Source: Luteolibacter sp. Y139 (GTDB taxonomy: Bacteria > Verrucomicrobiota > Verrucomicrobiia > Verrucomicrobiales > Akkermansiaceae). Taken from it: a stretch of 64,000 nucleotides of DNA. This document shows positions 4,805-64,000 of the stretch, piece by piece; position 1 is the stretch's first letter; each line of letters begins with the position of its first letter. The notes under the pieces were generated by a model. The model was given only the letters and a program-made list of their open reading frames with translations. It was not told the DNA's origin and made no database searches. Location: NCBI RefSeq assembly GCF_038066715.1, contig NZ_JBBUKT010000011.1, positions 62,001-126,000 of the forward strand, read 5' to 3'. Both the position numbers and the translations under genes were made by a program.

Positions 4805-6274
4805 CTAGGCGAGGAATCCAAGCGGCCCGGTCGCGGCGGGCGTGAAGAAGTTGCCGACATTCGGCAGCACCAGAGGCAGGCTGGAGGGTGGCACGCCGAG
4901 CCACAGGGCGAGCTCGGCGAAGTATTCGTCGCAGCTCGTTGTTGGAATAAGCCGGCCACGGCCGGTATCGAGCGGGTTCAGGTCGTTGCCGCTTTCCGGA
5001 TTGAGGGCGAGGCTGGGATACTGGCCGTAGATCTTTTTTCCTACGACGCTGCCGCCCATCACGAAGTGATTGCCGCCCCATGCGTGGTCAGAGCCGCGGG
5101 CATTGCTGGTGAGCGTGCGGCCGAAGTCGGAGGCGGTGAAGAGCACGACTTGGTCCTGGATGCCGAGCGCGACGAGGGCTTGCCAGAATTCACCGATGGC
5201 TTGGTCCACCTCGCCCAGCATGGCTTCCTGAAGCGACAGGGTTTCACTGTGGTGGTCCCAGCCGCCGCGCTGGACGAAGAAGGTCTGGCGTGCGGCCTGC
5301 AGTCCATTGCGGCCCATGATGGCCTTCGCCACCTGCTTGAGCTGGCGGCTGAGTGGATTGTCATTGGTGAAGGTGGCGGTGGCAGGGAGATCAGGCGCGG
5401 TGGCGGCGGCATACATCTCGTAGGCCTGCTGAGCCTCGCGGCGCTTCTTCTGGAAGGTCTCCTGCAGCAGGTGGCTGTATTGCTGGGCCAGCATGCTATC
5501 GACGGCGGTGCTGGCGGTATTGTCGAAAGGACGATCGGGATCGTAGCCGGCTTTGTAGCCGGTGAGCGGAGTGGCTCCGCCGCCGGATCCATCACCGTAG
5601 CCGGCATTGACGGCATACTCCGCGCCGGTGATTCCGCTCTGGAAGACATTGCTGCCGTCGATGGAGATGTTCATCGAGACCGCCTGGCCGGGATTGATGC
5701 CCTTGATGAGGTCCATCATGCGGCCGGCCCAGCCGACGCCGGTGCGGCTCTGCGGAACGCTGGTCTGCCATTGCTCGATCTGATCGGAGTGCGAGTAGAG
5801 GCCGAGCGGCAGGCGCTTGGATGCGGCGATGACTTCGGCGCGGCTGAAGACTGGCTCGATCAAGGTGCCGACATTCGCCACGAAGGCGGCATCGCCTGCT
5901 TCGAAACGTGCAGCGAGGTTCGGCATCGAGGGATGCACGCCGAAGGTGCGGACGCCTGTATTGGTCGGGTGAATCCGGTGAAGATCCTCGAGATCGAGCG
6001 CGAGATCGCCGCGGCTGTTCACGTACTCGGTGCGTGAGTCATCGTGAGTAGAGGAAGGGCCGCTGTAGGGGGACAGCATGTTGAAGCTGTCATTCCCGCC
6101 GCTGAGGAAAAGGCAGACGATGGCGCGATACTCGCTGGCTACGGGCGGGGCTGCACTGGCGATGGAACCGGCGAGCCGCAGATTGAGCAGCGTATTCAGC
6201 AGCGGGATCGAGCTGACGGCGGAGCAGCTGGCTTGGCCGAGGAAGCGACGGCGGGACGTGCGGTGGGCATTCAT
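4805..6274 (-). CDS. DUF1501 domain-containing secreted protein
   Basis: A 489-aa protein of the DUF1501 family, which belongs to the alkaline phosphatase-like/sulfatase-related fold. I chose the ATG at 6274 because it places a twin-arginine signal (TSRRRFLGQAS) at the N-terminus; a GTG ten codons upstream also exists. Family signatures visible are CLFLSGGNDSFNML near residue 50, the VANVGTLIEPV segment, and in the C-terminal half VVLFTASDFGRTL and SDHAWGGNHF, which supply metal-ligand-like D and H residues. Folded export by Tat to the periplasm is expected. Unlike the two other DUF1501 genes here it has no PSD1 cytochrome partner. It faces the AAA ATPase gene divergently across a 198-base gap. 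Confidence 0.85.
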   Translation of the reverse strand: MNAHRTSRRRFLGQASCSAVSSIPLLNTLLNLRLAGSIASAAPPVASEYRAIVCLFLSGGNDSFNMLSPYSGPSSTHDDSRTEYVNSRGDLALDLEDLHRIHPTNTGVRTFGVHPSMPNLAARFEAGDAAFVANVGTLIEPVFSRAEVIAASKRLPLGLYSHSDQIEQWQTSVPQSRTGVGWAGRMMDLIKGINPGQAVSMNISIDGSNVFQSGITGAEYAVNAGYGDGSGGGATPLTGYKAGYDPDRPFDNTASTAVDSMLAQQYSHLLQETFQKKRREAQQAYEMYAAATAPDLPATATFTNDNPLSRQLKQVAKAIMGRNGLQAARQTFFVQRGGWDHHSETLSLQEAMLGEVDQAIGEFWQALVALGIQDQVVLFTASDFGRTLTSNARGSDHAWGGNHFVMGGSVVGKKIYGQYPSLALNPESGNDLNPLDTGRGRLIPTTSCDEYFAELALWLGVPPSSLPLVLPNVGNFFTPAATGPLGFLA

Positions 6275-6472
6275 GGGATCGTTTCGGATCACGCCGGGGG
6301 GCACGCGCGATGGGCTTATCTCAGATTTGGGGAGGCCTGTCTACCTAGGGCTCCGGGTCATTTTGCGCAGAGACACTGAATCGCTCTTTCTCCGCTTTCT
6401 TTTGCGGTCTGTTGGGATTCCGGGCGGCCTTTCCCATCGACATTGGGGCGGCGGGCGAGTGTCTTTCATGCG

Positions 6473-8122
6473 ATGTCTCTTCCGTCCTGGGCCACCGAGA
6501 TCGTCGCGCGCTACGAAAGCGGGGCGGCGGGTCAATTCATCCTCCACGGCAATGTCGCCGACCGCATGCTCTTGCGCCTGCCGGAGGGTCCGAAATTGGG
6601 ACGGCTGAATGACTACTTGTTAGACGTGTTGCTACCGCGTTTCCAAGTGGTGCTGAGCTATGATCCGGGCTTCGGCTTGCGCGTCGAGCGGGGGAAGGAA
6701 GTGTTTGCTGATTGGCCGGCGTTGAAGGAGATGCCGGAGTTGCCATCGCTGCCCTTGCTGGCGGTCCGGGCCATCGCTCGCTTTCTCCAGTATGCACGGA
6801 ACCTGCGCGCGGTCGGGGCGAAGCCGGTGACCGTGGCGGTGGTGCTGCGGGATGCGCAGCTCTACGTGCCGGTGCTGCCGCAGACGATGAATCATGAGCT
6901 GAGCGCGATTGCTTCGCTGATCCGCACGTGGGGTGGTGACACCACGCTGGCGGCGCATGGCCAGGCGGTGTTCCTGGTGGCGGATCGTATCAACAGCCTG
7001 CATCCGCTGGTTGCCACAAATCCGCGGGCGGCGGAGATCGAGCTGCCATTGCCGGATACGAGTGAGCTGGCCGGAGCACTGCAGGCGCTGGCTCCCGAGT
7101 GCCCGAAGGCGCTGGCGACGGATGCGGATTTTACACGCATCGCTTCGCGACTGGCGGGCACGTCGATCGCAGCCTTGGAAGCTTTCCTGCGGCGTCGCAA
7201 TCACGCGGGCCTGCCATTGGGCGATGCCGACCTCGGCGAGCTGCGGAAGGCGCTGGTCGAGCGCGACGCGGGTGAGTTGCTAGACTTCGTGGAACCTGAC
7301 CGAACCCTTGACGATGTGATCGGTTTGGAAGGCGTGAAGACGCGGCTGCGCCAGGATCTCACGCTTTGGAAACAGGACGAAGTCGAGGCGCTGCCGATGG
7401 GCTATTTGTTCTGTGGGCCTGTCGGGACGGGCAAGACCTATTTGGCCGAATGCCTCGCTGGTGAAGCGGGTGTGCCGGTGGTCACTCTTCGGAACTTCCG
7501 CGATCGCTGGGTGGGATCCACCGAGGCGAACTTGGAGAAGATCTTCGCGCTTCTGCATGCGTTGGGCCGTTGCATCGTCTTCATTGATGAAGCCGACCAG
7601 GCACTGGGCCGTCGCACGGCGGGTAGCGGAGACTCCGGTGTCTCCAGCCGTGTTTACTCAATGCTCGCCGCGGAGATGTCCGACACTCGTAATCGCGGCA
7701 AGATCCTGTGGGTGCTGGCCTCGAGCCGGCCGGATTTGATCGAGGTCGACTTGAAGCGCCCGGGCCGTATCGACGTGAAGGTGCCGATCTTCCCGACCGC
7801 GACTGCGGAGGAGGGGATGATCCTGTTAGGCGCGTTGTGCAAGCGCCGCGGCATCCCGCTTGATGATGCGGCAAAGGCCGCGTTGCTTCCCTTGGTTCCC
7901 TCATGGCTCACGCCGGGCGCTGCGGAAGCGCTCGCGGTGAAGGCCTATCGTCTAACAAAAACGGGAACCCCCTCCGCTCAAGAGGCGCTGCGCACTTGTT
8001 TGCAGGGTTACTTGCCGCCCGTCGATCCACTGGTCATCAAGGCTCAGATGCGACTCGCTTCTGAAGAAGCGACCGATGCGGAATTCGTTCCTGCGGAGGT
8101 CCGCCGCTACCTCGACTCCTGA
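6473..8122 (+). CDS. AAA+ ATPase (classical AAA domain) with unknown N-terminal domain
   Basis: A 549-aa cytoplasmic ATPase. The N-terminal ~270 residues include QFILHGNVADR near residue 20 and are otherwise unrecognised. The classical AAA module follows: Walker A GPVGTGKT with the lysine near residue 321, Walker B CIVFIDEADQ near residue 370, and a second region of homology containing RPDLIEVDLKRPGRID that includes the arginine-finger region. This places it with Cdc48/FtsH/proteasomal-type AAA proteins, which remodel or unfold protein partners. The ATG at 6473 was preferred to one at 6443 because homology-like sequence starts at MSLPSWATEIV. Its stop overlaps the next start as TGATG, so the two products are probably made together and may form a membrane-associated complex. 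Confidence 0.8.
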   Translation: MSLPSWATEIVARYESGAAGQFILHGNVADRMLLRLPEGPKLGRLNDYLLDVLLPRFQVVLSYDPGFGLRVERGKEVFADWPALKEMPELPSLPLLAVRAIARFLQYARNLRAVGAKPVTVAVVLRDAQLYVPVLPQTMNHELSAIASLIRTWGGDTTLAAHGQAVFLVADRINSLHPLVATNPRAAEIELPLPDTSELAGALQALAPECPKALATDADFTRIASRLAGTSIAALEAFLRRRNHAGLPLGDADLGELRKALVERDAGELLDFVEPDRTLDDVIGLEGVKTRLRQDLTLWKQDEVEALPMGYLFCGPVGTGKTYLAECLAGEAGVPVVTLRNFRDRWVGSTEANLEKIFALLHALGRCIVFIDEADQALGRRTAGSGDSGVSSRVYSMLAAEMSDTRNRGKILWVLASSRPDLIEVDLKRPGRIDVKVPIFPTATAEEGMILLGALCKRRGIPLDDAAKAALLPLVPSWLTPGAAEALAVKAYRLTKTGTPSAQEALRTCLQGYLPPVDPLVIKAQMRLASEEATDAEFVPAEVRRYLDS

Positions 8123-10086
8123 TGACACCGGAACAGGAACGATTCGCGGAGCTTGCAACGAGGTCATTGGAAGGAACACCGGAGCTTCGGGATGAAGCTC
8201 GCTCCGAGGTTCTGGGCCGCCTTGCTCATACCGGAGCCGACCCCGCGGAGGCTTCGGCAAGGCTGGAGTCGAGTCAGCCGCGATCCTTCTGGATGCCGGT
8301 GTGCCTTTCAGCGTTGGCACTCGTCGTTCTGGGCCTATGCGCCAGCTGGCAGATGACGAAAGTCTTGCCTGAAGCCAGAACGCTTCAGGGGCTCACGAAT
8401 TTCGGATCGTCTCTCAATCCCAAGGATCGATTGCGAGAGCGACTCGACCCGGAGACGCGCGATTTCGTCTATGCCTGCATTGGTTCGGACCATGAAGTGG
8501 CGAAGAACCTCCAGCGACAATGGGAACTTCATCCCGACGAGCTGGGAATCTACGAGGAGCTTGTACACCGCCGCATCGCCGCGAAAGAAGGCTTGCCCCC
8601 GGGTTTTCAGAAAACGTGGCGACGTCGTGATGGCGACAATGGCATGTGGCTCTTCCTCGAGGCGGTTGGCAAGAATGAGGAATGGAAGGCCAAAGGGCCG
8701 CCTGCCGGGGAAACGTTTTCCCGGGAGACGCTGGACTTGCTTCGTCAAAGCGCTTCAGCCCCGAGGTTCAAGTCCTACTTGCCTGAACTCCGCAAGCATC
8801 GTCTCGCCCTGCTGGGCCCCACCGACACGATGGCGGGAGAGACGGAGATCTTCCTCTACTCGATTTCGGCGCTCTGGGCACCGAGCATTCGCTACCAGAA
8901 CGACGCGCTCCTCACCTTTAGCAAAGCGGCAAAGCAGGCCGTGGTGGATAAGAACGCCACGGAACTTGCAGCCGTGATCAAGTCTTACGAGCGCTTGCCT
9001 GGTCGTCTGGCCGGGAACGGGAGCACGCTTTTGGATCTGATTCCCGCCGCGTCTAGTTGGAGCGAAGCAAGCAAGGTCATGGTCCAAGCGAGCCGGGACC
9101 TCGGACTGCAAGAGGAAGAACTCCGGATGGAAGAACTCGGGAAGCAATTCTCGGACTACCAGGCGACGTATCATAGGTCCCGTGCCGACGCGAAGCCGAT
9201 GAGCTCTCTCGCGCGGGTGTTGGTGAGTGGTCCACTGCCTGACGTGGTCGTCGAGGCATCTGCTTTCGAGCCCGGCCGGCGGGTGGAATACGCCGTGATG
9301 GAGCGGATGTCAGCTTTGCTGGCAGCGATCGTGGTGCTGCTATTTCTCGCCGTTGCCGTTGTCGAAAGCTTCCGCCGGGGCCGTCGGGTCAATGGCTTGG
9401 CGACCGGCTTGGAGCCTCTGTTTCATAGGGTGGATCTGCTGTGGACTTTAGGCCTCGGAGTTGTCGTTCCGTTGTTGTGGTATTTCGGGATCACACGAGG
9501 GACTGCTTTCGGCCTGCGCGATATCGGAATGACTTACTACGAGAACCAGCCGCATCCTATCTTGATCCAGGAGGGAGCGGCTTTGGTATTCATGCTCCTG
9601 ATGATCGTTCAGACGGTGCGCTGGCGCGTCTCCACGAGAACCAGCTTCCTAGCGTTGAAACCTGCTCGGCCATGGATCGGGTGGACGATGGCGGGCGTTG
9701 CCGCGGTGGTCATGCTTTCGGCGGGTGGAGTCCGCTGGCTTCCGGGAAATCAGCAGCGCTATCTGCAGGCGATCGCAGCTACCGGTGGCTTGCCGTTGCT
9801 GTGGCTATTGTGGGAGACGGGGATGATGCTCTTTTCGTCCCGTGACCAAGCTCTCGGTGGCGTCCTTTTGTGCCGTCGCATGATCGTGCCGCTCACACTG
9901 CTGGCGGGATTGCTGCTCGCATGCCGGGGGCCGCTGATGGCGACCGAGCGTTATTGTCACGCGCAGGACAATGTGACCCGAGCTGACCGCGAGCGTGGTG
10001 GGTTGACCCTGTTGGAGAGTCAAGTGGTTGAGAACGTTCGCAGGCGCATGCACAAGGCATTTTCCGAAGCCAGCTCCGCCCGCTGA
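8122..10086 (+). CDS. Multi-pass membrane protein of unknown function, partner of AAA ATPase
   Basis: A 654-aa protein I do not recognise. It has one transmembrane segment near residues 57-77, then a soluble, probably extracytoplasmic, domain of about 310 residues rich in charged amino acids (such as RETLDLLRQS and PELRKHRL). About six hydrophobic helices follow between residues ~393 and 610. The C-terminal tail (residues 610-654) is again charged. The initial 55 residues contain an EQERFAELATRSLEGTPELRDEA helix-like segment that could dock to a cytoplasmic partner. The gene overlaps the AAA ATPase stop codon by one base (TGATG), implying translational coupling. No catalytic motif was seen. 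Confidence 0.75.
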   Translation: MTPEQERFAELATRSLEGTPELRDEARSEVLGRLAHTGADPAEASARLESSQPRSFWMPVCLSALALVVLGLCASWQMTKVLPEARTLQGLTNFGSSLNPKDRLRERLDPETRDFVYACIGSDHEVAKNLQRQWELHPDELGIYEELVHRRIAAKEGLPPGFQKTWRRRDGDNGMWLFLEAVGKNEEWKAKGPPAGETFSRETLDLLRQSASAPRFKSYLPELRKHRLALLGPTDTMAGETEIFLYSISALWAPSIRYQNDALLTFSKAAKQAVVDKNATELAAVIKSYERLPGRLAGNGSTLLDLIPAASSWSEASKVMVQASRDLGLQEEELRMEELGKQFSDYQATYHRSRADAKPMSSLARVLVSGPLPDVVVEASAFEPGRRVEYAVMERMSALLAAIVVLLFLAVAVVESFRRGRRVNGLATGLEPLFHRVDLLWTLGLGVVVPLLWYFGITRGTAFGLRDIGMTYYENQPHPILIQEGAALVFMLLMIVQTVRWRVSTRTSFLALKPARPWIGWTMAGVAAVVMLSAGGVRWLPGNQQRYLQAIAATGGLPLLWLLWETGMMLFSSRDQALGGVLLCRRMIVPLTLLAGLLLACRGPLMATERYCHAQDNVTRADRERGGLTLLESQVVENVRRRMHKAFSEASSAR

Positions 10087-47852: not shown

Positions 47853-47856
<4 letters not shown>

Positions 47857-50717
47857 CGGGTCAGGGCGATGTCGGAGTTGAGCAGCGTGTTTGCGACGAG
47901 CACGAGTGCTGCTTCATCCGGTGTAGGTGCGAGCTTGGCGGACTCCGCGGGAGATTTCTCGTAGTCCGCCCTGGCGTCGGCGTGGAGCTTCGCGAGCGTG
48001 GCGACAACAGGTGGAGGTGCGTCTTGAAGCGTCAGCATCTTGTAGCCCCGGGCGAGACGCTCTTCGACATTTGCGCCTTCCATCCGCTTCGCGAAGGCCT
48101 GCGCGAGTTCGATGTAGGCGGGGTCGTTCAGAGTCACCAATGCCTGCAATGGGGTATTGGTGGAAATGCGGCGGGCGGAGCAGACGTCGCGAGTCGGTGC
48201 GTCGAAGGTGAGGAAGGCGGGATAGCCGCTGGTTCGTTTCGAGTAGGTGTAGAGGGCGCGGCGGTAGCGATCCTCGCCTTGGGAGGTGTCCCACTTGGCA
48301 CCGCTATAAACGGACTTCCACACGCCTTCCGGCTGGGGCGGATAGACGGGCTTGCCGAATTGCTTGTGCGAGAGCAGGCCGGAGACGAGCAGCGCTTGGT
48401 CGCGGACCATCTCGGCGGAGAGCCGTTGGCGGGGGCCACGGGAGGCGAGCTGGTTTTTTGGGTCGCGTTGCAGCGCTTCGGGGGTGGCTTTCGACGACTG
48501 CCGGTACGATGCGGATAGTACCAGCTCTCGCAGGAAAGGCTTGAGGTGCCAGTGATGTTGATCTCGCAAGCGCAGTGCAAGGTGATCGAGCAAGGGCTGG
48601 TCTGCGGGTGGCAAGCCGGAGCTGCCGAAGTCTTCCTGTGTTTCCACAATGCCGATGCCGAACAGCTCGGCCCACAGTCGATTTGCCAGCACGCGGGCTG
48701 CCAGAGGGTTTTCCGGTCCGGTGAGCCAGGTGGCGACATCGAGGCGCGTCAGGCGGCCGTCTTTCTTCGGCCCGCCAGTGAGCGCGGGGATGGCCGGCTG
48801 GACGGACTTCTCCTTGGTCATGCGGTTGCCGCGGATGAAGACGCGGGTGTCGCGAGTGGCATCCGGCAGGCGTTCCTGCATCACCGGGATCATGGTGCCT
48901 TGGATGGCATTGTAAGACTGCTTGAGCTGGCCGTGGGCGATCCAAGCGGAGGCCCGCTCGGGGCTCATCACGAAGTTGGTGAGCCGCTCATCGGGCGATA
49001 CGGCGAGGCGGAATTTCCGCATCACGCAGCCCTGAGTCTCATTGCAGGTGACGCCGTGCTTGAGGCGGATCTCAAACTTCGAGTCGGGTGGTGAATCCTC
49101 GACCTTCTCCGCCACGAACCATCCGGTTCGCGGGCTGCGGAGCACGGGATAGTCGCCGAAGCCGCCGCCGCCTTGAACCACGCCATTGGGATCGAGCGGG
49201 CCGGCGATGAAGTCGCTGACAACTTCCTTCAGCTTCACCGGTTGGCGTGTGCCGTCTGGCAAGATGCGATCGATTTCCAGCTTGGTGACCACCGCGCCGA
49301 ATTCGCTCCATTTCGCCGGGTCATCGCTCATCGGCAGGATGTCCAGCCGCAGCACGCCGAGCCGCGAAGCAGGCACGGTCACGGTGAAAACGGTGGCGGT
49401 GGGGTTGGTCCCGCCGGCGAGGAAAACACCATCAGGCTGCTGCTCCAGCTTGCCGGTGTCGGCCGATGCTGCGGCGGAGTCTGCTTTCACCGTCTGCCAG
49501 CCGGTGGTCTCCTTCGCGAGCGCGAGCGCCGCTTCGTTGAGCTCCTCGCGGTTGGTGCGGATATCCTTTTCCAAGCGCTGGGCATCCGCCTGCTGGGCGG
49601 GATCGTTGGCGGCCTTCGACTTGGGAAACTCGTTGTTCAGGTCGCTGTCCTCGCTGTTATCGAAGAAGGCCATGAACTTGTAGTAATCGTCATGGGGGAA
49701 GGGGTCGTAGGGGTGGGAGTGGCACTGGATGCAGCCGAAGGTGGTGGCATTCCACGCCGTCCAGGTTGTGTTCACGCGGTCCATCACCGCAGCGGTCCGA
49801 TACTCTTCGTCGTCGGTGCCGCCTTCGGTATTGTTCTGCGTATTGCGGTGAAACGCGGAGGCGATGAGGTCGCCGGGCTCGGGATTCTCTAACAAATCGC
49901 CCGCGAGCTGTTTGCGTGTGAACTCATCGAAGGGCATGTCCGCATTCAGCGCGCGGATGACCCAGTCGCGGAACGGCCAGATATCGCGGTGCGGATCTTT
50001 CTCAAAGCCAGTGGTGTCGGAGTAGCGCGCAAGATCGAGCCACATCGCCGCCCAGCGCTCGCCGAACTGAGGTGACGCGAGCAGAAGGTCCACCGCGGCT
50101 TCCATCGCTGCCTGTGGATTGACGGCTACGCCTTTCTGGAAGGCATCCCACTCCTCGAGTGTCGGCGGCAGGCCGGTGAGATCGAGCGTCACGCGGCGAA
50201 ACCACTCGGCCGGCGGAGCCTCGGGCATCGGGGAAAGCTTTTCCGCCTCCAGCTTGGCGAGCACGTGGCGGTCGAGATCCGTCTTCGGCCACGCCGCGTT
50301 TTTCACGGCAGGGACCGGCGGCTCGACGGGCTTCTGAAAGGACCAGTGCTCGCCCCACTTCGCGCCCTCTTTGATCCATCGTTCTAACAATGCCACCTGC
50401 TGCGGTTCCAGCGGGTGCGGATGCTCCTTGGGCGGTGGCATCCGTTCGTCGGGGTCGCTGCTCTTGACCCGGTGCATGAGTTCCGATGCTGCGGGGTCGC
50501 CAGGGACCACGATGGTCTTGCCGGACTTGCCCTGGCCGAGCGCTTCTTCCCGGTAGATGAAGGAGGTCTCGCCCGCCTGCTTCACCCCGCCATGGCAGGT
50601 GGTGCAGTTCTTGGTGAGGATCGGCCGGATATCGCGGTTGAAATCCACGGGCTCTTCCGCGCTAACCCGAGAGGGGGTGATCTGGAGCAGGAGTAAGGAA
50701 ACGAGGAAGCGCGACAT
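47853..50717 (-). CDS. PSD1/PSCyt1 cytochrome with DUF1549 and DUF1553
   Basis: A 954-aa exported protein; the ATG at 50717 starts a signal peptide (MSRFLVSLLLLQITPSRVSA). The c-type heme site CTTCH near residue 41 (RPILTKNCTTCHGG) begins PSCyt1, with RMPPPKEHPHPL further on. DUF1549 spans ~130-330 (DLDRHVLAKLEAEKLSPMPEA, WFRRVTLDLTGLPPTLEEWDAF, QLAGDLLENPEPGDLIAS in parts), with CIQCHSHPYDPF near residue 335 as a second heme-like motif. A galactose-binding-like insert follows at ~440-620. DUF1553 occupies ~640-920 (NPLAARVLANRLWAELFGIGIV, SGYPAFLTFDAPTRDVCSARRIS). It is the electron-transfer partner expected for DUF1501. Confidence 0.92.
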
Positions 50718-50886
50718 GGTGCAGGTCGGGGCAGGGAATTCTTGCCTCCCTCGCACGGGTTACTGACGGATTTGGTAATAAATGAAATGAAAAATGAGAA
50801 ATGGAGCCAAGTGGTGGTGTGGCCATTTCATGCGACGGGCTCCAACGCCCTCTCTTCCCTCGCGCGGGCAGCATGATTCCAAGAAA

Positions 50887-54751: not shown

Positions 54752-55951
54752 CTAGTGATTCGCCAAGAGCGCGATCAGCAGGATCACGGCGATCACCAGC
54801 AGCGTGACGAAGAAGATCTTCCAGGCGCTGAGCGGGAAGCGGGCGTGGGCGGTGCCGGTGACGGCATTGACGGCTCCCTGCCAGGTCTTGCCGCGGTACT
54901 GGTAGGCGAGCAGCCAGATGGGGACGAGGATGTGCTTGAAGGTCTTGTCGGAGAACTCGGGGTAGATCTGGAGATTCCGATACGTGTCGCCGGGCACCTC
55001 GTGGCCGCACATTTCGCGCAGCATGCCCTCCATGGTGCCAAAGCCGAGGCGGGCGGCATCCATCAACGGAATCTGGTAGTGTTCGACCTGCCAGCCGGAG
55101 ACGTAGCGGGTCTCGTAGGGTACGAGATCCTTCGTGGGAAAGGGCTCCAGCTTCTGAAGTAGCTCGGTATCGAGGCCACGGGAGCCGGAGATGACGATGT
55201 CATCGAACCATGTGGAGACATGGCCGCTGGCCGGCCGCCATTTGGTGCGGCGCTCTTGGCGGGTGACGGTGCGGCCTTCGGAGTCGCGGCTTTGGACGGT
55301 GACCCAGTAGTAGGTGCCGCTCTCCGCAGTCCACGGGCATTCGGCGGAGGAGTCGAAGGTCCAGTAGGGGAGATAGACGCGGTTGATCCGGTCGATCAGG
55401 TTGCGGCGCTTGAGGTCATTCGGCGCAAACCAGCGTGCGGCGAGGAAGGCCTTGAGCGCGTGGTAAGCAGTCTCCTTTGAAATGGCGGCGGGCAGCAGCG
55501 ATTCCGGCGAGATCGGGCTGTGGATGTCGTTGTAGTCGAGCAGTTCGGGCGAGCCGCAGAAGTCGCAGTGCTGCGCGACGGTGTCGGCACTGCGGACGAG
55601 CACGGCGTGGCAGTTGTTGCACTGCACGCGGCGGGTGGCGGTGTCGACATTGACCGCCTTGTCGCCGAGGCGCGAAATCGCCTCATCGAGATCGTGCTCG
55701 ACGATGGTGCCGGGCATCGGCGGCGGGCCCTCACGGGGGAAACGCGTGCCGCAAAACGGGCACACGAGTTCCTTCTTCCCCGGATCCCACTCGGCCTTGC
55801 CGCCGCACTCGGGGCAGACGTGGCGCTCAAGCGACCGTACTTCCGCAGCGACCCCGCGCTGCCCGGGCAGCGGGGGTGGGATGCGTTTCTTCGGCAGCTC
55901 GAGCGGCGGGGCGTCCTCGTCCGGCGGTGCCGGTGGGTCAACGGGCTCCAT
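54752..55951 (-). CDS. Zinc-ribbon membrane protein (TFIIB-type zinc finger-like)
   Basis: A 399-aa protein with two zinc ribbons: C-PECGGKAEW...VCPFCGTRF near residues 46-70 and CNNCHAVL...HCDFCGSPELL near 110-137, four CxxC knuckles in all. The remainder is a beta-rich domain (NRVYLPYWTFDSSAECPW, ERRTKWRPASGHVSTWFDDI) and the C-terminus has a transmembrane helix (IFFVTLLVIAVILLIALLANH). This arrangement, next to an SPFH protein, is like the YdjG/YdjH-YdjI proteins that tether PspA in B. subtilis (family knowledge recalled, not tested). It is 38 bases from the SPFH gene on the same strand, an operon. Confidence 0.8.
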   Translation of the reverse strand: MEPVDPPAPPDEDAPPLELPKKRIPPPLPGQRGVAAEVRSLERHVCPECGGKAEWDPGKKELVCPFCGTRFPREGPPPMPGTIVEHDLDEAISRLGDKAVNVDTATRRVQCNNCHAVLVRSADTVAQHCDFCGSPELLDYNDIHSPISPESLLPAAISKETAYHALKAFLAARWFAPNDLKRRNLIDRINRVYLPYWTFDSSAECPWTAESGTYYWVTVQSRDSEGRTVTRQERRTKWRPASGHVSTWFDDIVISGSRGLDTELLQKLEPFPTKDLVPYETRYVSGWQVEHYQIPLMDAARLGFGTMEGMLREMCGHEVPGDTYRNLQIYPEFSDKTFKHILVPIWLLAYQYRGKTWQGAVNAVTGTAHARFPLSAWKIFFVTLLVIAVILLIALLANH

Positions 55952-55989: not shown

Positions 55990-57069
55990 CTAGTGAGCGA
56001 GGAAGGCGTCAAGCGCGGCGCGGGTGACGCGGTAGCTGGAGCCGATCTTCTTCGCGGGCAGGTTACCGGACTCGATCTCGGTCATGACGTCCGCCTCGGA
56101 GACACCGAGCATGCGGGCGACACTGGCAGGATCGAGGATATCAGGATTGGCCTGGACTGGAGCGGCGGAAGCGGCAGCGGGTGCGCCGGGCATCGGCGGC
56201 GGAGAGCCACCGCCGGTGAGTCCACCTTGCTGCATGAGTTCCTTCGCGACGGCAAATCCGACGGCGAGTTCGCTGGCAGTGCCGGCAGCACCACCACCGC
56301 CACCGGCGGCCATGCCCTGTCCCATCTGGTACTTCACGTAGTCGTTGAGATTGCCGATGGCCGACATGGCGGAGCGCTTGTCGATGGCCTCCTCGACTTC
56401 TGGCGGAACGCTGACGTTCTCGACGATGAAGGAGGACACCTCGATGCCGTATTTGGCGGAAATGACCGGATTGATCAGCGGCAGCAGCGCCTCACCGAGG
56501 TCGGTGTAGCGGGTGGCGACGTCGAAGACCGGGACGTGCGCATTTGCCAATGCGTCGGAGAAGATGCTGACGACGCGCGAGCGCATGGTGTCCGCGAATT
56601 CATCGACGCGGAAGTCATGGTCGGAGCCGGCGACTTCCTTGAGGAAGGTCTGCACGTTCGTCACCTTGAAGTCATAGGTCCCGTAGGCGCGGGCGCGGAC
56701 GACGCCGAGGTCGGCATCGCGCAGCATGATGGGATTGGCAGTGCCCCACTTGTTGCCGGTGAAGAGGCGGGTATTGACGAAATAGACGTCCGCCTTGAAG
56801 GGCGATTGGAAGCCGTACTTCCAGCCCTTGATACGGGTGAGCACCGGGATGTTGTCCGTGGTCAGCGTGTGCTTGCCGGGACCGAAGGTATCGCCGAACT
56901 GGCCGAGGTAGAGGAACTGCGCGACCTGGCTTTCCCTAACAATCAGCTGGGCGCCGTTCTTGATCGCCTTGTCGTCGTCGGGGTAGCGCCAGGCGATGGT
57001 GTCCCGTGAGTCGTCCTGCCACTCGATGATTTCGAGCAGCTCGCCTTTGATGAAGTCCATGAGTCCCAT
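55990..57069 (-). CDS. SPFH-domain protein with excisionase-like HTH tail
   Basis: A 359-aa cytoplasmic protein of the YdjI/virion-core SPFH type. Residues ~1-260 form the SPFH domain (MGLMDFIKGELLEIIEW, GPGKHTLTTDNIPVLTRI, FKADVYFVNTRLFTGNKWGTANP in parts, with a helical coil around EEAIDKRSAMSAIGNLNDYVKYQ). A glycine/proline-rich linker (~265-310) is followed by a ~48-residue helix-turn-helix (DPASVARMLGVSEADVMTEI and GSSYRVTRAALDAFL), similar to excisionase/MerR-like winged helices. Family members usually carry a zinc ribbon instead. The genes for a PspA-type partner are not in the window. Confidence 0.85.
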   Translation of the reverse strand: MGLMDFIKGELLEIIEWQDDSRDTIAWRYPDDDKAIKNGAQLIVRESQVAQFLYLGQFGDTFGPGKHTLTTDNIPVLTRIKGWKYGFQSPFKADVYFVNTRLFTGNKWGTANPIMLRDADLGVVRARAYGTYDFKVTNVQTFLKEVAGSDHDFRVDEFADTMRSRVVSIFSDALANAHVPVFDVATRYTDLGEALLPLINPVISAKYGIEVSSFIVENVSVPPEVEEAIDKRSAMSAIGNLNDYVKYQMGQGMAAGGGGGAAGTASELAVGFAVAKELMQQGGLTGGGSPPPMPGAPAAASAAPVQANPDILDPASVARMLGVSEADVMTEIESGNLPAKKIGSSYRVTRAALDAFLAH

Positions 57070-57171
57070 ATGCGTGGAAGGGGTAGATTGACCCCTGAAG
57101 GCTGAATGGCCCCGCGCGGCCCATCAATGAGAAATCGGGGGCGATTTTCGTAACCGCACGTAGAAAGAAAA

Positions 57172-57199
57172 AGCCCGGCTCCCTCGCGGGAACCGGGCT
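57172..57199 (-). terminator. Rho-independent terminator of ilvC
   Basis: Arms 57172-57178/57193-57199 and an inner TCCC/GGGA stem with a 4-base loop form a hairpin, preceded on the plus strand by an A-rich run (57163-57172) and followed by T3. It is 24 bases after the ilvC stop codon. Confidence 0.85.
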
Positions 57200-57223
57200 C
57201 TTTGGAATCGTTTGCGTTCTCGA

Positions 57224-58270
57224 TTAGTTCGAGGACGAGATCAGGCTGGCCTGGGTGGCGCCCTTCTTGAGCTTCTTGGCCTTGAGCCAGCTCATGGTGG
57301 CGCGGAGCTTTTCACCGGTCTTCTCGATCGGGTGATTGGCTTCTTCCTTGCGGATCTTGTTGAAGCGCGGGTAGCCGTTCTTGTATTCGGCGATCCAGTC
57401 CTTGGCGAACTTGCCGTTCTCAATGTCCTTGAGCTGCTTCTGCATCCGCTTCTTGACGGAGGCGTCGATGATCTTCGGTCCGACGGAAACATCGCCCCAC
57501 TCGGCAGTTTCGGAGATGGAGAAGCGCATGCCGGCGAGGCCTTGCTCGTTCATCAGGTCGACGATGAGCTTCAGTTCGTGGAGGCACTCGAAGTAGGCCA
57601 TTTCCGGCTGATAACCGGCTTCGACCAACGTTTCGAAACCGGCCTTCACGAGGGCGGAAGCGCCGCCGCAAAGGACGCACTGCTCGCCGAAGAGGTCGGT
57701 GACGGTTTCCTCGCGGAAGTCGGTTTCAAAGACACCGGCACGGGTGCAGCCGACGCCACGGGCCCAGGCGAGAGCCTTTTCCTTGGCCTTGCCGGTAGCA
57801 TCCTGGTGGATGGCGATCAGGCCGGGGACGCCCTTGCCGGCGACGAACTGGGAGCGGACGGTGTGGCCCGGGCCCTTCGGCGCGACGAGGATGACGTCGA
57901 TGTCTTTTGGCAGCTTGAGGCCACCGAACATCACGGCGAAACCGTGGGAGAAGAGAATGGTCTTACCGGCCTTGAGGTTCGGCGCGATGTCCTTTTCGTA
58001 GACGCCCGGGATGACAGTGTCCGGGACGGCGACGAAGATCACGTCGGCAGCCTTCACGGCTTCGGCGGTGTCCATGACCTCGAAGCCGAGCTTCTTGGCG
58101 ACTTCGCGGGACTTGGACTTCTTGTAGAGGCCGATGACGACCTTGCAGCCGCTGTCCTTGAGGTTGAGAGCGTGGGCGTGGCCCTGGGAACCGAAGCCGA
58201 TGACGGCCAGGGTCTTTTTCTTGAGCGGCGTGAGCGACGCGTCCTTGTTCGTATAGATCTTCGCGGCCAT
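57224..58270 (-). CDS. ilvC: Ketol-acid reductoisomerase, class I
   Basis: A 348-aa enzyme of branched-chain amino acid synthesis that converts acetolactate or acetohydroxybutyrate to the dihydroxy acids using NADPH and Mg2+. The N-terminal Rossmann fold has [17 protein letters not shown] near residue 25 with the [12 protein letters not shown] cofactor-specificity loop, SHGFAVMFG, and the catalytic [19 protein letters not shown] segment. The C-terminal helical domain contains [35 protein letters not shown] and [10 protein letters not shown] with the metal-binding aspartate and glutamates. Length and single C-terminal domain identify the short class I form. No ilvB/N/D genes are nearby. Confidence 0.96.
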
Positions 58271-58383
58271 GGCGATGGTTGTCAGTGTTGAACCGCCAGA
58301 GGCCTCCTCGGCCGCGGCGGGCGGACAAGCTGGAGACTTGACGCTCAGGGGTCAAGCGCGCGATGCGCGGCGAAAAGCGGCCT

Positions 58384-61300
58384 TCAGGCGATCTCGACGT
58401 AGCCCTTGCCGGTTTTCTCCGCGATCAGCTTGGTCATCTCACGGGTGGCGCGTGCTTCGTCGGCGAAGGTTTTCACCTGCGCCTGCCCGCTGGTGCCGAT
58501 CCGGCCGAAACGGATGTGGAGCGATGCGCCGTCCTGCGAAACGGCCCAGAACTTGCGTGAATTTCCGCCGGTGAACTCGAAGCGGCGATCGTTAGCGGCA
58601 CCGGAAACGGGTGCTACGGCCGGCTGCACGGGTGGCGGTGAAAGGGGCGGGGAAGGTGGTGAAACGGGCTCTGCCGGTGCCTTGTCTTCTTCCTCCGGTA
58701 AAATTTCCTCTTCCACCTCTAGGATCTCGCGGCGTAGCAGGCGCTCGATGCGTTCCAGCACCGCCTGCGGCTCGTGCCACCAGTCCTTGGCCATGACCAC
58801 GGCGACCTGCCAGCCGAACGCGCGCAGGATGCCGGGTCGGGTGTGAAAGCGCTCCAGCACGCCGGAAGTGCCGCCACCCTCGACGAGCACGGCGAGCTGG
58901 TGCCGGTCCGCTCCTCGCTCGCGCACGGCGACATCGCAGCGGAAACGGCTTTGACCGGTATCCGTTTCGACATGCCAGCCGCGCTGCTGCAAGGCGGAGG
59001 CGATTTGGCGGGCGACTCCGTTGCCGGAGGTTTCGCGGGAAAGCGACTTCCGCTTGAGGGGATTGAGGCCATCGAGCACCTGCCGGGCCATGGCAGGCTC
59101 GCTGCGGGAGAGGCTTTCGGCGTACTGCAGGAAGTTTTTGAGAGCCCGCGCGCCGTCGTTGTAATCGTTGGTGATTTGGTGATGGCGGATGCTGCTCACC
59201 AGCACCATGTGGTGGCGGGCGCGGCTGAAGATCACATTGAGGCGCTTCTCGCCGCCGCGCTGGTTGATGGGGCCGAAGTTCATCCGCATCTTGCCGGATG
59301 GATCGGGGCCGTAGCAGACGGACATCAGGATGATATCGCGCTCGTCGCCCTGGACGTTTTCCAGGTTCTTCACGAAGAGGCCGCAGAATTGATCGTCCTC
59401 CTCGCGGACATACTCGGCCTCCAGGCGGGTGGCGAATTCCGGATCTTCGGCGGCGAGGGCTTCGAGCGCGGACTCGATCTCGCCCTGCTGCGCTTCGCTG
59501 AAGGCCGCGACGCCGATGCTGAGCTTCGATTCAGAAATCAATAGCCCGCGCACGAGGCGGGCGATGACCGCTGCTTCGGTAGCATTGCGGCGATCTTCAT
59601 ACGGGGCATTTTCGCAGCGGAGATAGCTGATGGGGCGAGTGAGGATTTCCGGCACGAATTGCCCGGCATCCTCCGGCGTGGCGACGACGAGATCTTCGCA
59701 GTCCGCGGTCGTGAGCTGGCGATCGGGGATGGTGTAGAGTTCGCCACCGTAGAAGGCCGCGTTGCTGAAGCTGATCAGCGACTCATAGCGGCTACGGTAG
59801 TGCCAGGCCAGCAGGGTGCTTGGCAGGTTCCGGGCGCATTGGGTGAGGAAGCTGTCGGCATCCATCAGCAGGCTCACCGATTCGCCATCTTCCTCGACCG
59901 TGAGTTCATCGTCGTCGTCACCGCCACTGCTGCTGAAGAAGCTGGTGGGCGGGAGCTGCATTTCATCTCCCACCACGATGACCTGCTGCGCTCGGTAGGC
60001 CGCGGGCACGGCATCTTCCACAGGGATCTGGCTCGCTTCGTCGAAGATCACGACGTCGAACAAGCCGGTGTCGAGAGGCAGTGTGTCCGACACCGAGAGC
60101 GGGCTCATCAGCCAGATCGGTTTCAGGTCGCGCACCACTTCACCGCTGTCGCCTGCGGCGAGATCGCGGATTGATTTGTAGCGCATCGTCTTGCCGAATT
60201 CGTGTTCGAGTTCTCGGCGCCCGGCGGTGTAGGACTTCTTGAATGCCTTCTGGTCCGCCGAAAGCACCGTCGCCGATTGATTGGCGATCTGGACGTGTTC
60301 GAGGAAGCGCTTGCGGACGCCAGCGCGGATCCAGCCCGCATTCTGGTCCAGCCACTGGCGGTGGGCATTGGCCAGGCGGTCGAGTTTCTGCTGGAGGAGA
60401 TGGCAGTCGAAGCGCTGCAGCATGCGGTCCTCGCGATAGAGTTGGGTGAGCGTCTTGCGCGCGCATGCGGCTTCGAGCTGCTCGGCGGTGAAGGCAAACT
60501 CGCGCGTCGATCGACGAAGCGCCTCGGGCGTGGCGGCGAGATCGCGAAGGGCGGGCAGAAGTTCGGGCAAGGCATCGAGCTCCTCACGCACTTCGCGGAC
60601 GGCGGAGGAAAGTTCGGCGAGGCCGTGGCTTTCCGCTCCGTGGAGCAGCTCGCGCAGATTGGCTTCCAATCGCTGGAATCCGGGTGCGAGCGCGGCCAGG
60701 ATTTTCACCAATCCCGCTCCTTGGTCTGAGGAAAGCAGGCGGGTCTTCAGTGCCACAATTGCCGGTGGCGCGGCGGGATCGTTCAAGGTCTTCAGGTCCG
60801 CAGCGAGCGCGCCGGGTTCTTCACTCGCGAAGTCTCGCAACGACCGGGCGCGGACATCCGCCAGCGCTGCCGCCGCGGCGTGCTCCGCGGAAAGGTCGGC
60901 CAGCACCTGCTCCCACGTGGGAGCAACCGCATGCTTGGAGAAGTCGTAACGCGCTCGCAGCACCTTGCGCAGCCGCCACCACGCGGGATTGATAAAGCCG
61001 AGCAATCCTTGGACTTTCGGCGCGAGGGAGAGCGCGGTGGTCGTGTCCTCCGGCGGCAGTTTGTCGATCCAGTGTTTGTTCTTGGTCTGCTTCGCCGCGA
61101 GATCCAGCCGCTTGGCTTCGTGCTCCGCCTGCAATTTCGAGAACTCGGCGGAGCGCTGCGCTTTCGTATCTAACAGATCTAGCAACCCTCGCTCGGCGAG
61201 CGGCAGCAAGCGCCGCGAGAAATCGAGCAACTGCCCGATTTCTGCCAGCGTGTCCCAATGTTCGATGGGCAAGGCCGTTTGTTCGAGCGCGTCCTGGAGA

Positions 61301-63849
61301 TCGTCGAGTTGGTGCTCGGCGTCGTCGAGCCGAGCAGCGAGTCCTTCCAGCGGTGAATCGCGGGTGATGACCGCTTCGCCCAGCCAGCGCAGTGGATGGG
61401 TGGCGAAAACCGGTTCGGCGCCGAGGTCGCGTAGCACTTCGCCGAGGCGGATAACGACGTCGCCGTGCTCCAGCCAAACGTCGTAGCCCGGCAGGTGTTC
61501 TTCTTCTGCTGCCGTGAGATCGGGGCAGGCGCTGCCGTCATGGGTGCCGCGCAGTTCGATCAAGCGCTGCAGCAGCCCGTTCAGGGTCACGCCTGCTCCT
61601 TGCGGCACGGATTGAAGCTGGGTGGCGTATTTTTCAAGCGCCCCGAGCTCGCTTGCCATCGCCCGCAAGGCCGCGTGGCGCTTCGAAGCATCGTGCTCGC
61701 TGCCGCCGGCAAGCCATTGCTCGTAGGTCTGCTTGAGATTGAGGATGAATTCCTTCTTGTCCGTCTGCGAATCGTGGATGAGGCAGCACAGTTCATCGAG
61801 GCCTTGCTGGCGCAGGCGGTGGAAGACGACATCGATGGCGGCGCGCTTCTCGCAGACGAAGAGCACGCGTTTTCCACGAGCCACGTAGTCTGCGATCAGG
61901 TTGGTGATGGTCTGCGACTTTCCGGTGCCCGGTGGTCCCTGGATGATCAGGCTGTCGCCGAGACGGGCTTTGGCGATCGCACCGACTTGGGTCGCATCGG
62001 CGACGATGATGAGGTGCTGGTCGGAAGGCGGCAGCTCCGGCGGTGAGGTCTCGTCAATGGCCTTCGGCTCGATGGAGAAGACCCGGTCGAAGGCGAGGCT
62101 CGGCGTGTCGTGCTCGATGAGGTTCGCGTAGTCGCGGACCAGGGTCATCTTGCGGTAGTTGAAGTTCGCGAGGGTCATCGCGCAAAGGTCGAGCTCCCAC
62201 GAGTAGGGATTTCCCTGCGATTCCTCCACCAGCGTGAACATCTTCCGGTCCGTGACGGTGCCAGCTCCCGCCATGAAGGGCGTGCGCGGTCGTGGCGGCG
62301 CACCGGCGAGTTCGCGCAGCGGCAGCGGTGAAGGCACCACCAGCTTCTGGAACATCTGCAGGCCCAGCGGCCGGAAGTCGGTGCGATCGTAGCTGTAGTC
62401 GAGGCTGCCCGCGCGCTTCACCCGCCTTCCCTGGCGGGCCATGCGGCGGCGATACTGATCGAGCCGCTGTTTCGCGCGCTCGTGGACGAGCTGGATCTTC
62501 GGCTTGTCCGCGAGTTCGAGCGTGATGCCTGGTTCGGTCGCGTGGATCAGGCGGCAAAGGTTTTCATGGAAGGCGGCGAGGGTCGTCTCTCGCAGGTCGA
62601 TGGTTTCCGGGAGATCAAGATCGTAGAGCTGCTTGAGGTGATGGCGCAGCGCCGGGTTTACCTCTGCTTCGCTGCCTTGCGGTTCGAGCGTGTAGTGGTC
62701 TTTGACTCCCTTTCGCTTTACCAATTCCACCGGCAGCAGCAGCAAGGGTGAGTGGATTCGCTCGTTGGGTGCTTCCTTGAGATTGTTCCAACGCAGGAAG
62801 GCGATGACCAACCGGAGCTGCGAGAAGCCATACTCAGCGCGGCTGCGTCGCGCGTCGCTGATCAGCTTGTCGAGCTGGCCGGGAAGGTATGGGGCTTCCT
62901 CGTAACGCAGCCATTTTTGCAAGGGCAAGGCGCGTCCGGAAACGATCTCGGGGGCCAGGCCATCGTGCCAATAGAAGAGCTGGTCGGGCCGGATGTTCCG
63001 GAAGTCGAGCACCAGCGGGACGCTCGCCGTGGTGAGATTGAGCGTGGCCTGCGAGCTTTGGAAATAGAGTAGCCGGTTACGCCGCGAGACCTCGAACAAG
63101 CGGTCGCGCAGATGCGTCTGGATGATCCGCCGCCGTCCGCCCTTCGTCGCCGTTGCGAGGCCCGGCAACGCAAGCACGTCGGCATCCACGGGTTGATCGC
63201 GGTAGCTTTCCAAGCGCCGGATCAGCGAGGGAAGATCTTGTGCGCGCTTGCCGCGATGCAGCTCGGTCATTTCCACGATCAAGCCCGCGATCACCGGATG
63301 CAGCCGCGGCGCGATGGTAAAGAGATTCTTCCGCGAGTTCGCGAAGCGTTCCAAGTCATCGCGGTCCGTGAGATCCAGTCCGCAGGCGAGGCTGGCAAGC
63401 AGCATGCCGAGCGAATGGATGTCGGTGAGCGCGTCGTGATGGCCGATGGCGTGCTCCCAATTCGCGTAGCCTGCTAGAAAGACCGGCTTCGTGATCTCAT
63501 CGTCTGCGGTCCCGACATCGAGGTTGGAGACTTTGGTGAGATAATTCTCGTCCGACTCGCGGCGCATTTCGCCGATCACCTCCACGCCATGGCTGGCGGG
63601 AACCTGTAGCTCATAGACGCGGATCGCGTTTGACGTGGGGGCGATGCCTTCCGTCGATTTCAATCCGAGCGCGCGGTCATCGTGAACGACCAGCGCCGAG
63701 ACTCCGCGCAAGGGCGCCACCTGCGCGGCATCGTGGATGGCCACGACCTCGCGCATCAGCGGTAGCACCGCGGCAAGCACGTCATCGGTCTCGAAGCCGC
63801 CGCGCTCGTGTCCCTGTTCGAGGAAATGGAGGAAGGGATTCTCGGTCAT
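58384..63849 (-). CDS. Kinase-like/DUF4011/SF1 helicase/Vsr-like nuclease/WGR fusion (defence or repair candidate)
   Basis: An 1821-aa protein. N-terminal region ~40-190 resembles a degenerate protein kinase (LAGYANWEHAIG, TDIHSLGMLLASLACG as C-lobe helices), with no visible catalytic HRD/DFG residues. DUF4011 spans ~240-440 (HLRDRLFEVSRRNRLLYF). A superfamily 1 helicase core follows with Walker A GPPGTGKSQT (lysine 644), Walker B VVIFDEASQIP (aspartate 1270), VGDEMQLPP and AWHYRSRYE motifs. A long helical region lies between 700 and 1200. Residues ~1610-1710 resemble Vsr/MTES-1575 endonucleases (CDVAVRERG, LAVLVEGGG, ILRAFGWQVAVV). After a proline-rich linker, ~1755-1821 is a WGR domain (FEFTGGNSRKFWAV, RFGRIGTSGQ). 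I used the ATG at 63849, overlapping the upstream stop (ATGA). Confidence 0.85.
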   Translation of the reverse strand: MTENPFLHFLEQGHERGGFETDDVLAAVLPLMREVVAIHDAAQVAPLRGVSALVVHDDRALGLKSTEGIAPTSNAIRVYELQVPASHGVEVIGEMRRESDENYLTKVSNLDVGTADDEITKPVFLAGYANWEHAIGHHDALTDIHSLGMLLASLACGLDLTDRDDLERFANSRKNLFTIAPRLHPVIAGLIVEMTELHRGKRAQDLPSLIRRLESYRDQPVDADVLALPGLATATKGGRRRIIQTHLRDRLFEVSRRNRLLYFQSSQATLNLTTASVPLVLDFRNIRPDQLFYWHDGLAPEIVSGRALPLQKWLRYEEAPYLPGQLDKLISDARRSRAEYGFSQLRLVIAFLRWNNLKEAPNERIHSPLLLLPVELVKRKGVKDHYTLEPQGSEAEVNPALRHHLKQLYDLDLPETIDLRETTLAAFHENLCRLIHATEPGITLELADKPKIQLVHERAKQRLDQYRRRMARQGRRVKRAGSLDYSYDRTDFRPLGLQMFQKLVVPSPLPLRELAGAPPRPRTPFMAGAGTVTDRKMFTLVEESQGNPYSWELDLCAMTLANFNYRKMTLVRDYANLIEHDTPSLAFDRVFSIEPKAIDETSPPELPPSDQHLIIVADATQVGAIAKARLGDSLIIQGPPGTGKSQTITNLIADYVARGKRVLFVCEKRAAIDVVFHRLRQQGLDELCCLIHDSQTDKKEFILNLKQTYEQWLAGGSEHDASKRHAALRAMASELGALEKYATQLQSVPQGAGVTLNGLLQRLIELRGTHDGSACPDLTAAEEEHLPGYDVWLEHGDVVIRLGEVLRDLGAEPVFATHPLRWLGEAVITRDSPLEGLAARLDDAEHQLDDLQDALEQTALPIEHWDTLAEIGQLLDFSRRLLPLAERGLLDLLDTKAQRSAEFSKLQAEHEAKRLDLAAKQTKNKHWIDKLPPEDTTTALSLAPKVQGLLGFINPAWWRLRKVLRARYDFSKHAVAPTWEQVLADLSAEHAAAAALADVRARSLRDFASEEPGALAADLKTLNDPAAPPAIVALKTRLLSSDQGAGLVKILAALAPGFQRLEANLRELLHGAESHGLAELSSAVREVREELDALPELLPALRDLAATPEALRRSTREFAFTAEQLEAACARKTLTQLYREDRMLQRFDCHLLQQKLDRLANAHRQWLDQNAGWIRAGVRKRFLEHVQIANQSATVLSADQKAFKKSYTAGRRELEHEFGKTMRYKSIRDLAAGDSGEVVRDLKPIWLMSPLSVSDTLPLDTGLFDVVIFDEASQIPVEDAVPAAYRAQQVIVVGDEMQLPPTSFFSSSGGDDDDELTVEEDGESVSLLMDADSFLTQCARNLPSTLLAWHYRSRYESLISFSNAAFYGGELYTIPDRQLTTADCEDLVVATPEDAGQFVPEILTRPISYLRCENAPYEDRRNATEAAVIARLVRGLLISESKLSIGVAAFSEAQQGEIESALEALAAEDPEFATRLEAEYVREEDDQFCGLFVKNLENVQGDERDIILMSVCYGPDPSGKMRMNFGPINQRGGEKRLNVIFSRARHHMVLVSSIRHHQITNDYNDGARALKNFLQYAESLSRSEPAMARQVLDGLNPLKRKSLSRETSGNGVARQIASALQQRGWHVETDTGQSRFRCDVAVRERGADRHQLAVLVEGGGTSGVLERFHTRPGILRAFGWQVAVVMAKDWWHEPQAVLERIERLLRREILEVEEEILPEEEDKAPAEPVSPPSPPLSPPPVQPAVAPVSGAANDRRFEFTGGNSRKFWAVSQDGASLHIRFGRIGTSGQAQVKTFADEARATREMTKLIAEKTGKGYVEIA

Positions 63850-64000
63850 GGTCGGGCGGCGGCGAGCAGTTCGGAGGACTTTTCCTTGAGTCGCTTGAGG
63901 TCCTTCGCTTTCAGCTTCAGTTCCTTGGCGGCGAGCTTTTCGAAGTGGCTCAGGCATTCGAGGTCGCGGGCCCGCTCGATGGCCGCGGCTACCGGCAGTT
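63846..64000 (-). CDS. Partial gene upstream of the helicase fusion (C-terminal 50 aa)
   Basis: Only the last 50 residues are in the window: the frame runs from the right edge to a TGA at 63846-63848, which overlaps the ATG of the helicase gene as ATGA. The visible tail is a highly charged helix (HFEKLAAKELKLKAKDLKR and KEKSSELLAAARP). No family can be assigned from this part. Because of the overlap it must be co-translated with the helicase fusion and is probably its functional partner. Confidence 0.7.
   Translation of the reverse strand, partial: LPVAAAIERARDLECLSHFEKLAAKELKLKAKDLKRLKEKSSELLAAARP

Follow-up and report, generated by a model that had tools for sequence, protein, structure and literature searches.

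A large helicase-nuclease of the DUF4011 family, encoded in the window (the whole stretch of 64,000 nucleotides of Luteolibacter sp. Y139 DNA that was analysed), has an M48-type zinc peptidase as its near-obligate partner. The large gene (P0001; 58384..63849, minus strand) is a single ORF of 1821 codons encoding a protein of 1821 aa, and it is the second gene of an operon in which the peptidase gene (P0002, 396 aa) comes first, the two overlapping by 4 bp. The peptidase gene, recognised by its ORF, Pfam and alignment, has its 3′ end in the window (63846..64000, minus strand) and spans 63846 to 65036 in extended coordinates, past the window edge (contig C11:125846-127036). The reading we favour, with middling confidence, is that the pair is a two-gene, protease-coupled, chromosomal accessory system for policing DNA that is abnormal or enters the cell.

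The large protein consists, in order, of a pseudokinase C-lobe, DUF4011, an SF1 helicase, an MTES_1575 nuclease, a proline-rich linker and a WGR domain. Five of these parts had been read in one ORF from the letters alone in the first-pass annotation, and all five were confirmed, on the minus strand, as are the coordinates that follow. DUF4011 (residues 250-405; 62635..63102), the two helicase motor parts AAA_11 (residues 618-686; 61792..61998) and AAA_12 (residues 1341-1553; 59191..59829), the MTES_1575/Vsr-like nuclease (residues 1614-1703; 58741..59010) and WGR each scored above their Pfam cut-offs, the nuclease with 44.1 bits against 38.2, and the proline-rich linker (residues 1709-1754; 58588..58725) was read from the translation. 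Walker A is GPPGTGKS at residues 638-645, and the motif DEAS (residues 1270-1273; 60031..60042), located by conservation in the aligned sequences, is Walker B/motif II. Both, together with many other motor residues, were conserved in at least 95% of 77 sequences, and the PDB sequence matches of the motor were SMUBP-2, SEN1 and UPF1, that is, a UPF1-like SF1 core. The nuclease residue D1639 was conserved in 75 of 77 sequences and position 1657 was acidic in all 77 (D in 73 and E in 4, with E in the window protein), a pattern suggesting that the nuclease is probably active. Neither an ADP-ribosyltransferase catalytic domain nor DUF3320 was found in the large protein among Pfam families at E<=1, and HEPN and transglutaminase families were not reported in it by Pfam. 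Relatives of the large protein were collected with six peptide patterns of the query, the best 80 of 132 being taken as 79 loci, so that near kin and Pseudomonas and Variovorax sequences are over-represented; three loci (L018, L046 and L075) were left out of the 77-row counts and of the tree, and a further alignment, A3, has 47 rows.

The N-terminal region (residues 2-220; 63190..63846) resembles the C-lobe of protein kinases according to a fold test and alignment, and no N-lobe was present. The positions of the HRD and DFG motifs were unconserved in 77 sequences. The kinase-like N-terminus that had been called degenerate thus has a real kinase similarity, limited to the C-lobe, and this region is a pseudokinase as judged by alignment. 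An active kinase was ruled out, since the catalytic positions vary freely. Eleven positions within residues 1-250 were nevertheless invariant in the 70 sequences (of 77 N-termini) of alignment A1.

The C-terminal WGR domain (residues 1756-1820; 58390..58584) was identified by Pfam (65.6 bits against a cut-off of 22 bits), by alignment and by profile comparison with the PDB, in which a profile of 25 of the 55 tails (alignment A6) matched a Bacteroides fragilis WGR structure (5.7e-23) and PARP3 (2eoc, E 2.4e-5). This bears out the earlier call of a WGR domain and its relation to the WGR of PARP3. WGR domains of PARPs bind DNA ends; by analogy, the domain may bind DNA ends here as well, and it could gate the helicase-nuclease. 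When homologues were searched for the same domain order, the architecture proved to be recurrent, with a WGR tail in 55 of 80 sequences and none in 25, where L018, which is frameshifted and has its WGR in another frame, was counted as missing. A WGR encoded in trans at the tail-less loci was also considered, and hmmsearch of the analysed stretches found none except that other-frame copy in L018. Where the tail occurs it is well kept: K1766, F1767, W1768 and G1782 were present in 55 of 55 tails, R1783 in 54 of 55, and many further residues were nearly invariant. WGR presence changed 9 times on the 77-row tree; the tail is therefore dispensable in evolution, and we regard it as a module and not as the defining sensor of the system.

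The absence of WGR from 25 of 80 sequences and the unconserved kinase catalytic positions might also mean that the tail and the kinase-like region are relics, and that the protein is an ordinary Hhe or ProA homologue whose active parts are the helicase and nuclease only. This is very improbable in view of the near-invariance of WGR residues wherever the tail occurs, the 11 invariant N-terminal positions and the fact that the protein misses the cut-offs of both the ProA and the Hhe models. Furthermore, the peptidase partner is conserved with this family, yet no peptidase homologue was found (tblastn, E<=1e-3) at any of the four paralogous plasmid loci examined out of 297 records.

The partner peptidase matched Pfam M48 with 33.6 bits against a cut-off of 20.3, and the residues of its HExxH motif (H124, E125 and H128) as well as E171 and D175 were invariant in 73 of 73 sequences. 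No transmembrane stretch was found in the protein, its NCBIfam matches were HtpX models only, and it matched none of the PADLOC models. M48 was matched by 66 of the 67 members of alignment A2, which was used for the peptidase model, covers 67 of 78 upstream genes and includes the row of L068, apparently its one Pfam-detected acetyltransferase. The peptidase also has an extra C-terminal helical part (about residues 300-396) with a conserved motif, YLxxVMLDFxxADPDLxD, which looks TerB-like by eye; TerB was matched there by one of 67 members at E 0.011, with an hhalign probability of 14% and no TerB match in the PDB.

A zinc peptidase that shares one operon with a helicase, a nuclease and a PARP-type module invites comparison with the repair of DNA-protein crosslinks or stalled complexes, in which WGR and the helicase would find the end, M48 would digest the trapped protein, and the helicase and nuclease would clear the remnant. 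Wss1 and SPRTN offer a precedent, being described in an extract of PMC7782752 as HExxH metalloproteases that work on DNA-bound proteins. The similarity to the Pfam SprT-like family is weak and widespread, as 54 of the 67 A2 members touched it at E<=0.5 (best E 2.8e-7); however, the window peptidase (21.3 bits) and the peptidase of locus L027 (22.9 bits) both fell below its cut-off of 25.6 bits, and the DPC-protease structure 6mdw was only a weak fold match (E 1.0). The peptidase fold and structure model is that of the L027 homologue rather than of the window gene. Crosslink repair is the main rival and has the most merit among the alternatives, and we consider it somewhat unlikely.

The association of the two genes was close in every comparison. 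The peptidase gene was present in 78 of 80 loci, 77 times directly upstream of the large gene, while the second most recurrent neighbour cluster was found in 20 of 80; a single-gene system is thereby ruled out. The 4-bp overlap recurred in 48 of the 78 loci. Distance matrices of the peptidase and the large protein correlated with r = 0.97 over 73 loci, compared to a maximum of 0.16 in 1000 permutations; seven loci that were partial, broken or without peptidase (L018, L046, L075, L068, L010, L026 and L040) were left out of this comparison. Among 77 relatives, the large gene (most of its length) and the peptidase (E<=1e-50) occurred in the same 9 genomes, and among 199 Pseudomonas genomes, where two candidates were scored per genome for the large gene, both occurred in the same 8, including G161, in which the pair is visibly decayed. 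At the thresholds used, 17 of these 276 genomes therefore had both genes and 259 had neither, a near-strict co-inheritance. The pair was also adjacent in a distantly related genome of the phylum, G543, whereas a weaker peptidase match in G064 had no large-protein homologue within 11 kb.

A few loci depart from this pattern. L075 is an exception to the pairing whose contig begins inside the gene, and in L046 the peptidase gene is present and the large gene itself is split. L068, from Planctomycetaceae, carries the large gene without a peptidase gene anywhere in the analysed stretch; it is the sole uncut locus of this kind, an apparent acetyltransferase gene lies upstream, and its large protein also lacks WGR. 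The absence of the peptidase from L068, together with the 9 changes of WGR, was counted against the surveillance reading. In the decayed Pseudomonas locus (L133, in G161) the large gene is fragmented, and the peptidase is matched in two frames.

G015, a genome of the same genus as the window, encodes a natural fusion of 1934 aa (P0003; L092:3934-9735, minus strand) with M48, DUF4011, SF1 helicase and MTES_1575 and no WGR by Pfam. Its first part, which is also the weaker peptidase match of that genome, was 31% identical to the partner peptidase (E 5e-16). We take this fusion as a strong sign that the peptidase and the helicase-nuclease work together, and a peptidase and a helicase-nuclease in one polypeptide would also suit crosslink repair. 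Another peptidase-helicase fusion, suspected from a 2133-aa open frame in G055, turned out to be two separate frames.

Tight co-presence, the 4-bp overlap with the peptidase gene first, and the damaged look of both genes in G161 are what one would expect of a toxin/antitoxin-like pair, in which the peptidase restrains a toxic helicase-nuclease, or the reverse, and selection acts on locus stability and not on defence. L068, however, retains the large gene without the peptidase, and in L018 and L046 the large gene is split beside the peptidase gene, although sequencing errors are possible in these two. Addiction modules are moreover abundant on plasmids, and no full copy of this pair was found there. 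Such a pair is quite unlikely in our estimation.

The system is patchily distributed and cassette-like in its presence and absence. Of 18 genomes from the same genus as the window, 5 carried the pair; the large gene was found in 17 of 81 Variovorax genomes, and the peptidase in 5 of 288 genomes sampled from the whole phylum. This patchiness argues against a core housekeeping role, and it is also unlike core repair, which weighs against crosslink repair. A genome of the same genus whose ilvC is 97% identical (G008) has a clean empty site in which the flanks of the operon meet: the sequences at 57162-58381 and 65090-68866 adjoin there at positions 5071-6288 and 6290-10064 of locus L085. The 6,708-bp difference (58382-65089 in extended coordinates; 58382..64000 in the window) contains the peptidase and the large gene as its only called genes. 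A search for repeats at the two edges tested found one 8-bp inverted match between them and no direct repeat of at least 8 bp. Species of one genus vary in where exactly the pair sits: in G003 and G009 (L088 and L089) it adjoins a gene judged TetR-like by eye and is not directly next to ilvC.

Evidence of carriage by plasmids or phages was sparse. Among 72,556 plasmids and 50,697 phages, no record covered 80% of the large protein and one phage record matched it partially; the peptidase had no plasmid match, and no relative was found in the viral collection. Partial matches to the large protein occurred in 297 plasmid records, most of which, among the matches listed, were annotated as DUF3320 or DUF4011, and DUF3320 was found in 2 of 3 plasmid paralogues tested. 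The tree (FastTree, 77 rows, long branches flagged) largely follows phyla, with 5 changes for 5 groups where the minimum is 4, and with some cross-order placements; one record named Rhizobium, for instance, falls among Erythrobacter. A tRNA-borne island in Pseudomonas was considered and rejected, with 1 tRNA among 10 loci at a distance of 9.5 kb.

We compared 148 neighbour genes (of 294 eligible, from 63 loci, after 12 near-duplicate loci had been left out) with 131 control genes, taken from 16 regions picked at arbitrary places in carrier genomes, using PADLOC at E<=1e-10. The neighbours matched 98 families, each by one gene, and the controls 49 families, one by three genes and the rest by one; many of the 25 neighbour families shown were reverse-transcriptase models that possibly stem from one gene. 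No defence-island signal was evident in this coarse comparison, which counts families rather than genes and leaves room for a weak signal, and the neighbour genes looked ordinary and metabolic by eye. The first-pass annotation had held that homologues found always in housekeeping contexts would speak against defence. This was borne out in part, as the neighbours showed no evident defence enrichment and there was no full plasmid or phage copy, but the patchiness speaks against housekeeping. Ordinary neighbours, the lack of a full plasmid copy and a tree mostly by phyla are likewise points for crosslink repair. SOS control was ruled out because LexA-like boxes were not enriched upstream: the gamma pattern occurred at 3 of 76 loci, where 4.0 were expected, and four other patterns at 0 or 1, and this again weighs against repair.

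Three further minus-strand genes of the window were noted by eye: one for an SPFH/virion-core-like protein with a C-terminal excisionase-like helix-turn-helix stretch (55990-57069) and after it one for a zinc-ribbon membrane protein (54752-55951), an unusual domain pair; and one for a planctomycete-type cytochrome c/PSD1-like protein of 967 aa (47853-50756).

The surveillance or defence reading draws on the conserved peptidase active sites and helicase and nuclease motifs, the co-inheritance, the fusion, the patchiness and the empty site. Counted against defence were the lack of an evident defence-island signal, the ordinary neighbours, the absence of a full plasmid or phage copy, of a viral relative and of a plasmid match to the peptidase, and the tree that largely follows phyla. 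On the reading we favour, the role would be directed against phages or other invaders. The large protein would load on DNA, with WGR as a possible sensor at ends or breaks and the SF1 helicase translocating, and would unwind the DNA and then cut it with the MTES_1575 nuclease. The co-made M48 peptidase would probably be a gate or a second effector: it may cleave the large protein, thereby releasing or inactivating the nuclease, or the DNA-loaded helicase may turn on the peptidase, whose targets would be proteins of the phage or of the host. Between the large protein and the peptidase, the pseudokinase C-lobe could serve as a docking or regulatory surface. A more specific version, which we consider unlikely, is a DNA-end-gated machine in which WGR sits at a broken or blocked end, the helicase threads, the nuclease cuts, and the M48 peptidase, docked on the half-kinase, digests DNA-bound proteins. 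Its targets, if it were true, would be complexes that replicate or package phage DNA, or else covalent crosslinks, and we know of no earlier bacterial system in which a dedicated metallopeptidase and a helicase strip DNA-bound proteins.

Either way, the pair connects one branch of DUF4011 helicase-nucleases with a peptidase. Should it serve defence, metallopeptidases would join the nuclease-protease logic recently shown for Hachiman and Canu; should it serve repair, bacteria would have a counterpart of SPRTN-type crosslink repair.

The link to anti-phage proteins that had been drawn through Hhe and Mokosh held at the family level: the best matches of the large protein were ProA, Hhe and the candidate PDC-S37, with both curated cut-offs missed. 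That these are anti-phage or candidate families was counted for the defence reading, and it weighs against crosslink repair. ProA (NCBIfam NF058533) was the top NCBIfam match with 696 bits, below its cut-off of 1500; the best stretch is residues 601-1730, the helicase and nuclease core, whereas neither the N-terminal third nor WGR is covered, and no description of ProA was among the literature matches listed. The PADLOC candidate PDC-S37 scored 688 bits, no threshold being given, with residues 537-1724 aligned to model positions 204-1356 of 1550; this match covers neither the pseudokinase and DUF4011 nor WGR, and the model carries no description. Hhe scored 449 bits with NCBIfam NF042953 (cut-off 2000 missed) and 302 bits with PADLOC PDLC02194. 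Hhe has DUF4011, an SF1 helicase and a Vsr-like nuclease, and the large protein has these in the same order, but the window system adds the M48 partner, the pseudokinase N-terminus and WGR. The kinase-like and helicase parts of the large protein resemble Mokosh, which combines a catalytic protein kinase domain with SF1 helicase parts (123 bits to PADLOC MkoA); in contrast, the kinase region here is a C-lobe only with unconserved catalytic residues, and the nuclease, WGR and peptidase are extra.

The MTES_1575 class, as presented in an extract of PMC3710099, joins an SF1 helicase and a Vsr REase to a C-terminal wHTH (DUF3320), through which it is predicted to recognise invading DNA. On that description it shares with the large protein the helicase and nuclease core and a predicted C-terminal DNA-binding module, and differs in having wHTH/DUF3320 where the large protein has WGR. 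A core DUF4011 gene adjoins the P. aeruginosa hotspot cDHS1, according to an extract of PMC10250203; identity with that gene is unlikely because no more than 8 of 199 Pseudomonas genomes have the pair. Known M48 peptidases such as HtpX, BepA and ZMPSTE24 differ from the window peptidase, which has no transmembrane stretch, carries the additional helical part at its C-terminus and is encoded with a helicase-nuclease. The terms "WGR domain" and "DUF4011" were not matched together in one paper of the open-licence literature, and none of the open-licence literature matches listed tied a DUF4011 helicase-nuclease to a peptidase, so that prior publication is possible.

By analogy, nuclease-protease Hachiman comes closest as a mechanistic precedent: as reported in an extract of PMC12799240, its defence needs the protease, the helicase and the nuclease, the last being a proenzyme that the protease opens; Hachiman is also described, in an extract of PMC12278908, as sensing DNA damage. 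Hachiman and Canu resemble the present pair in that protease and nuclease co-evolve within a single immune locus, which in Hachiman also includes a helicase, but their proteases are of trypsin or caspase type, where M48 is found here, and the arrangement of helicase and nuclease differs (extract of PMC12799240). Within the known DUF4011 family, the system of the window is a variant in which the helicase-nuclease has a metallopeptidase as its near-obligate partner and carries half of a pseudokinase and, optionally, a WGR tail.
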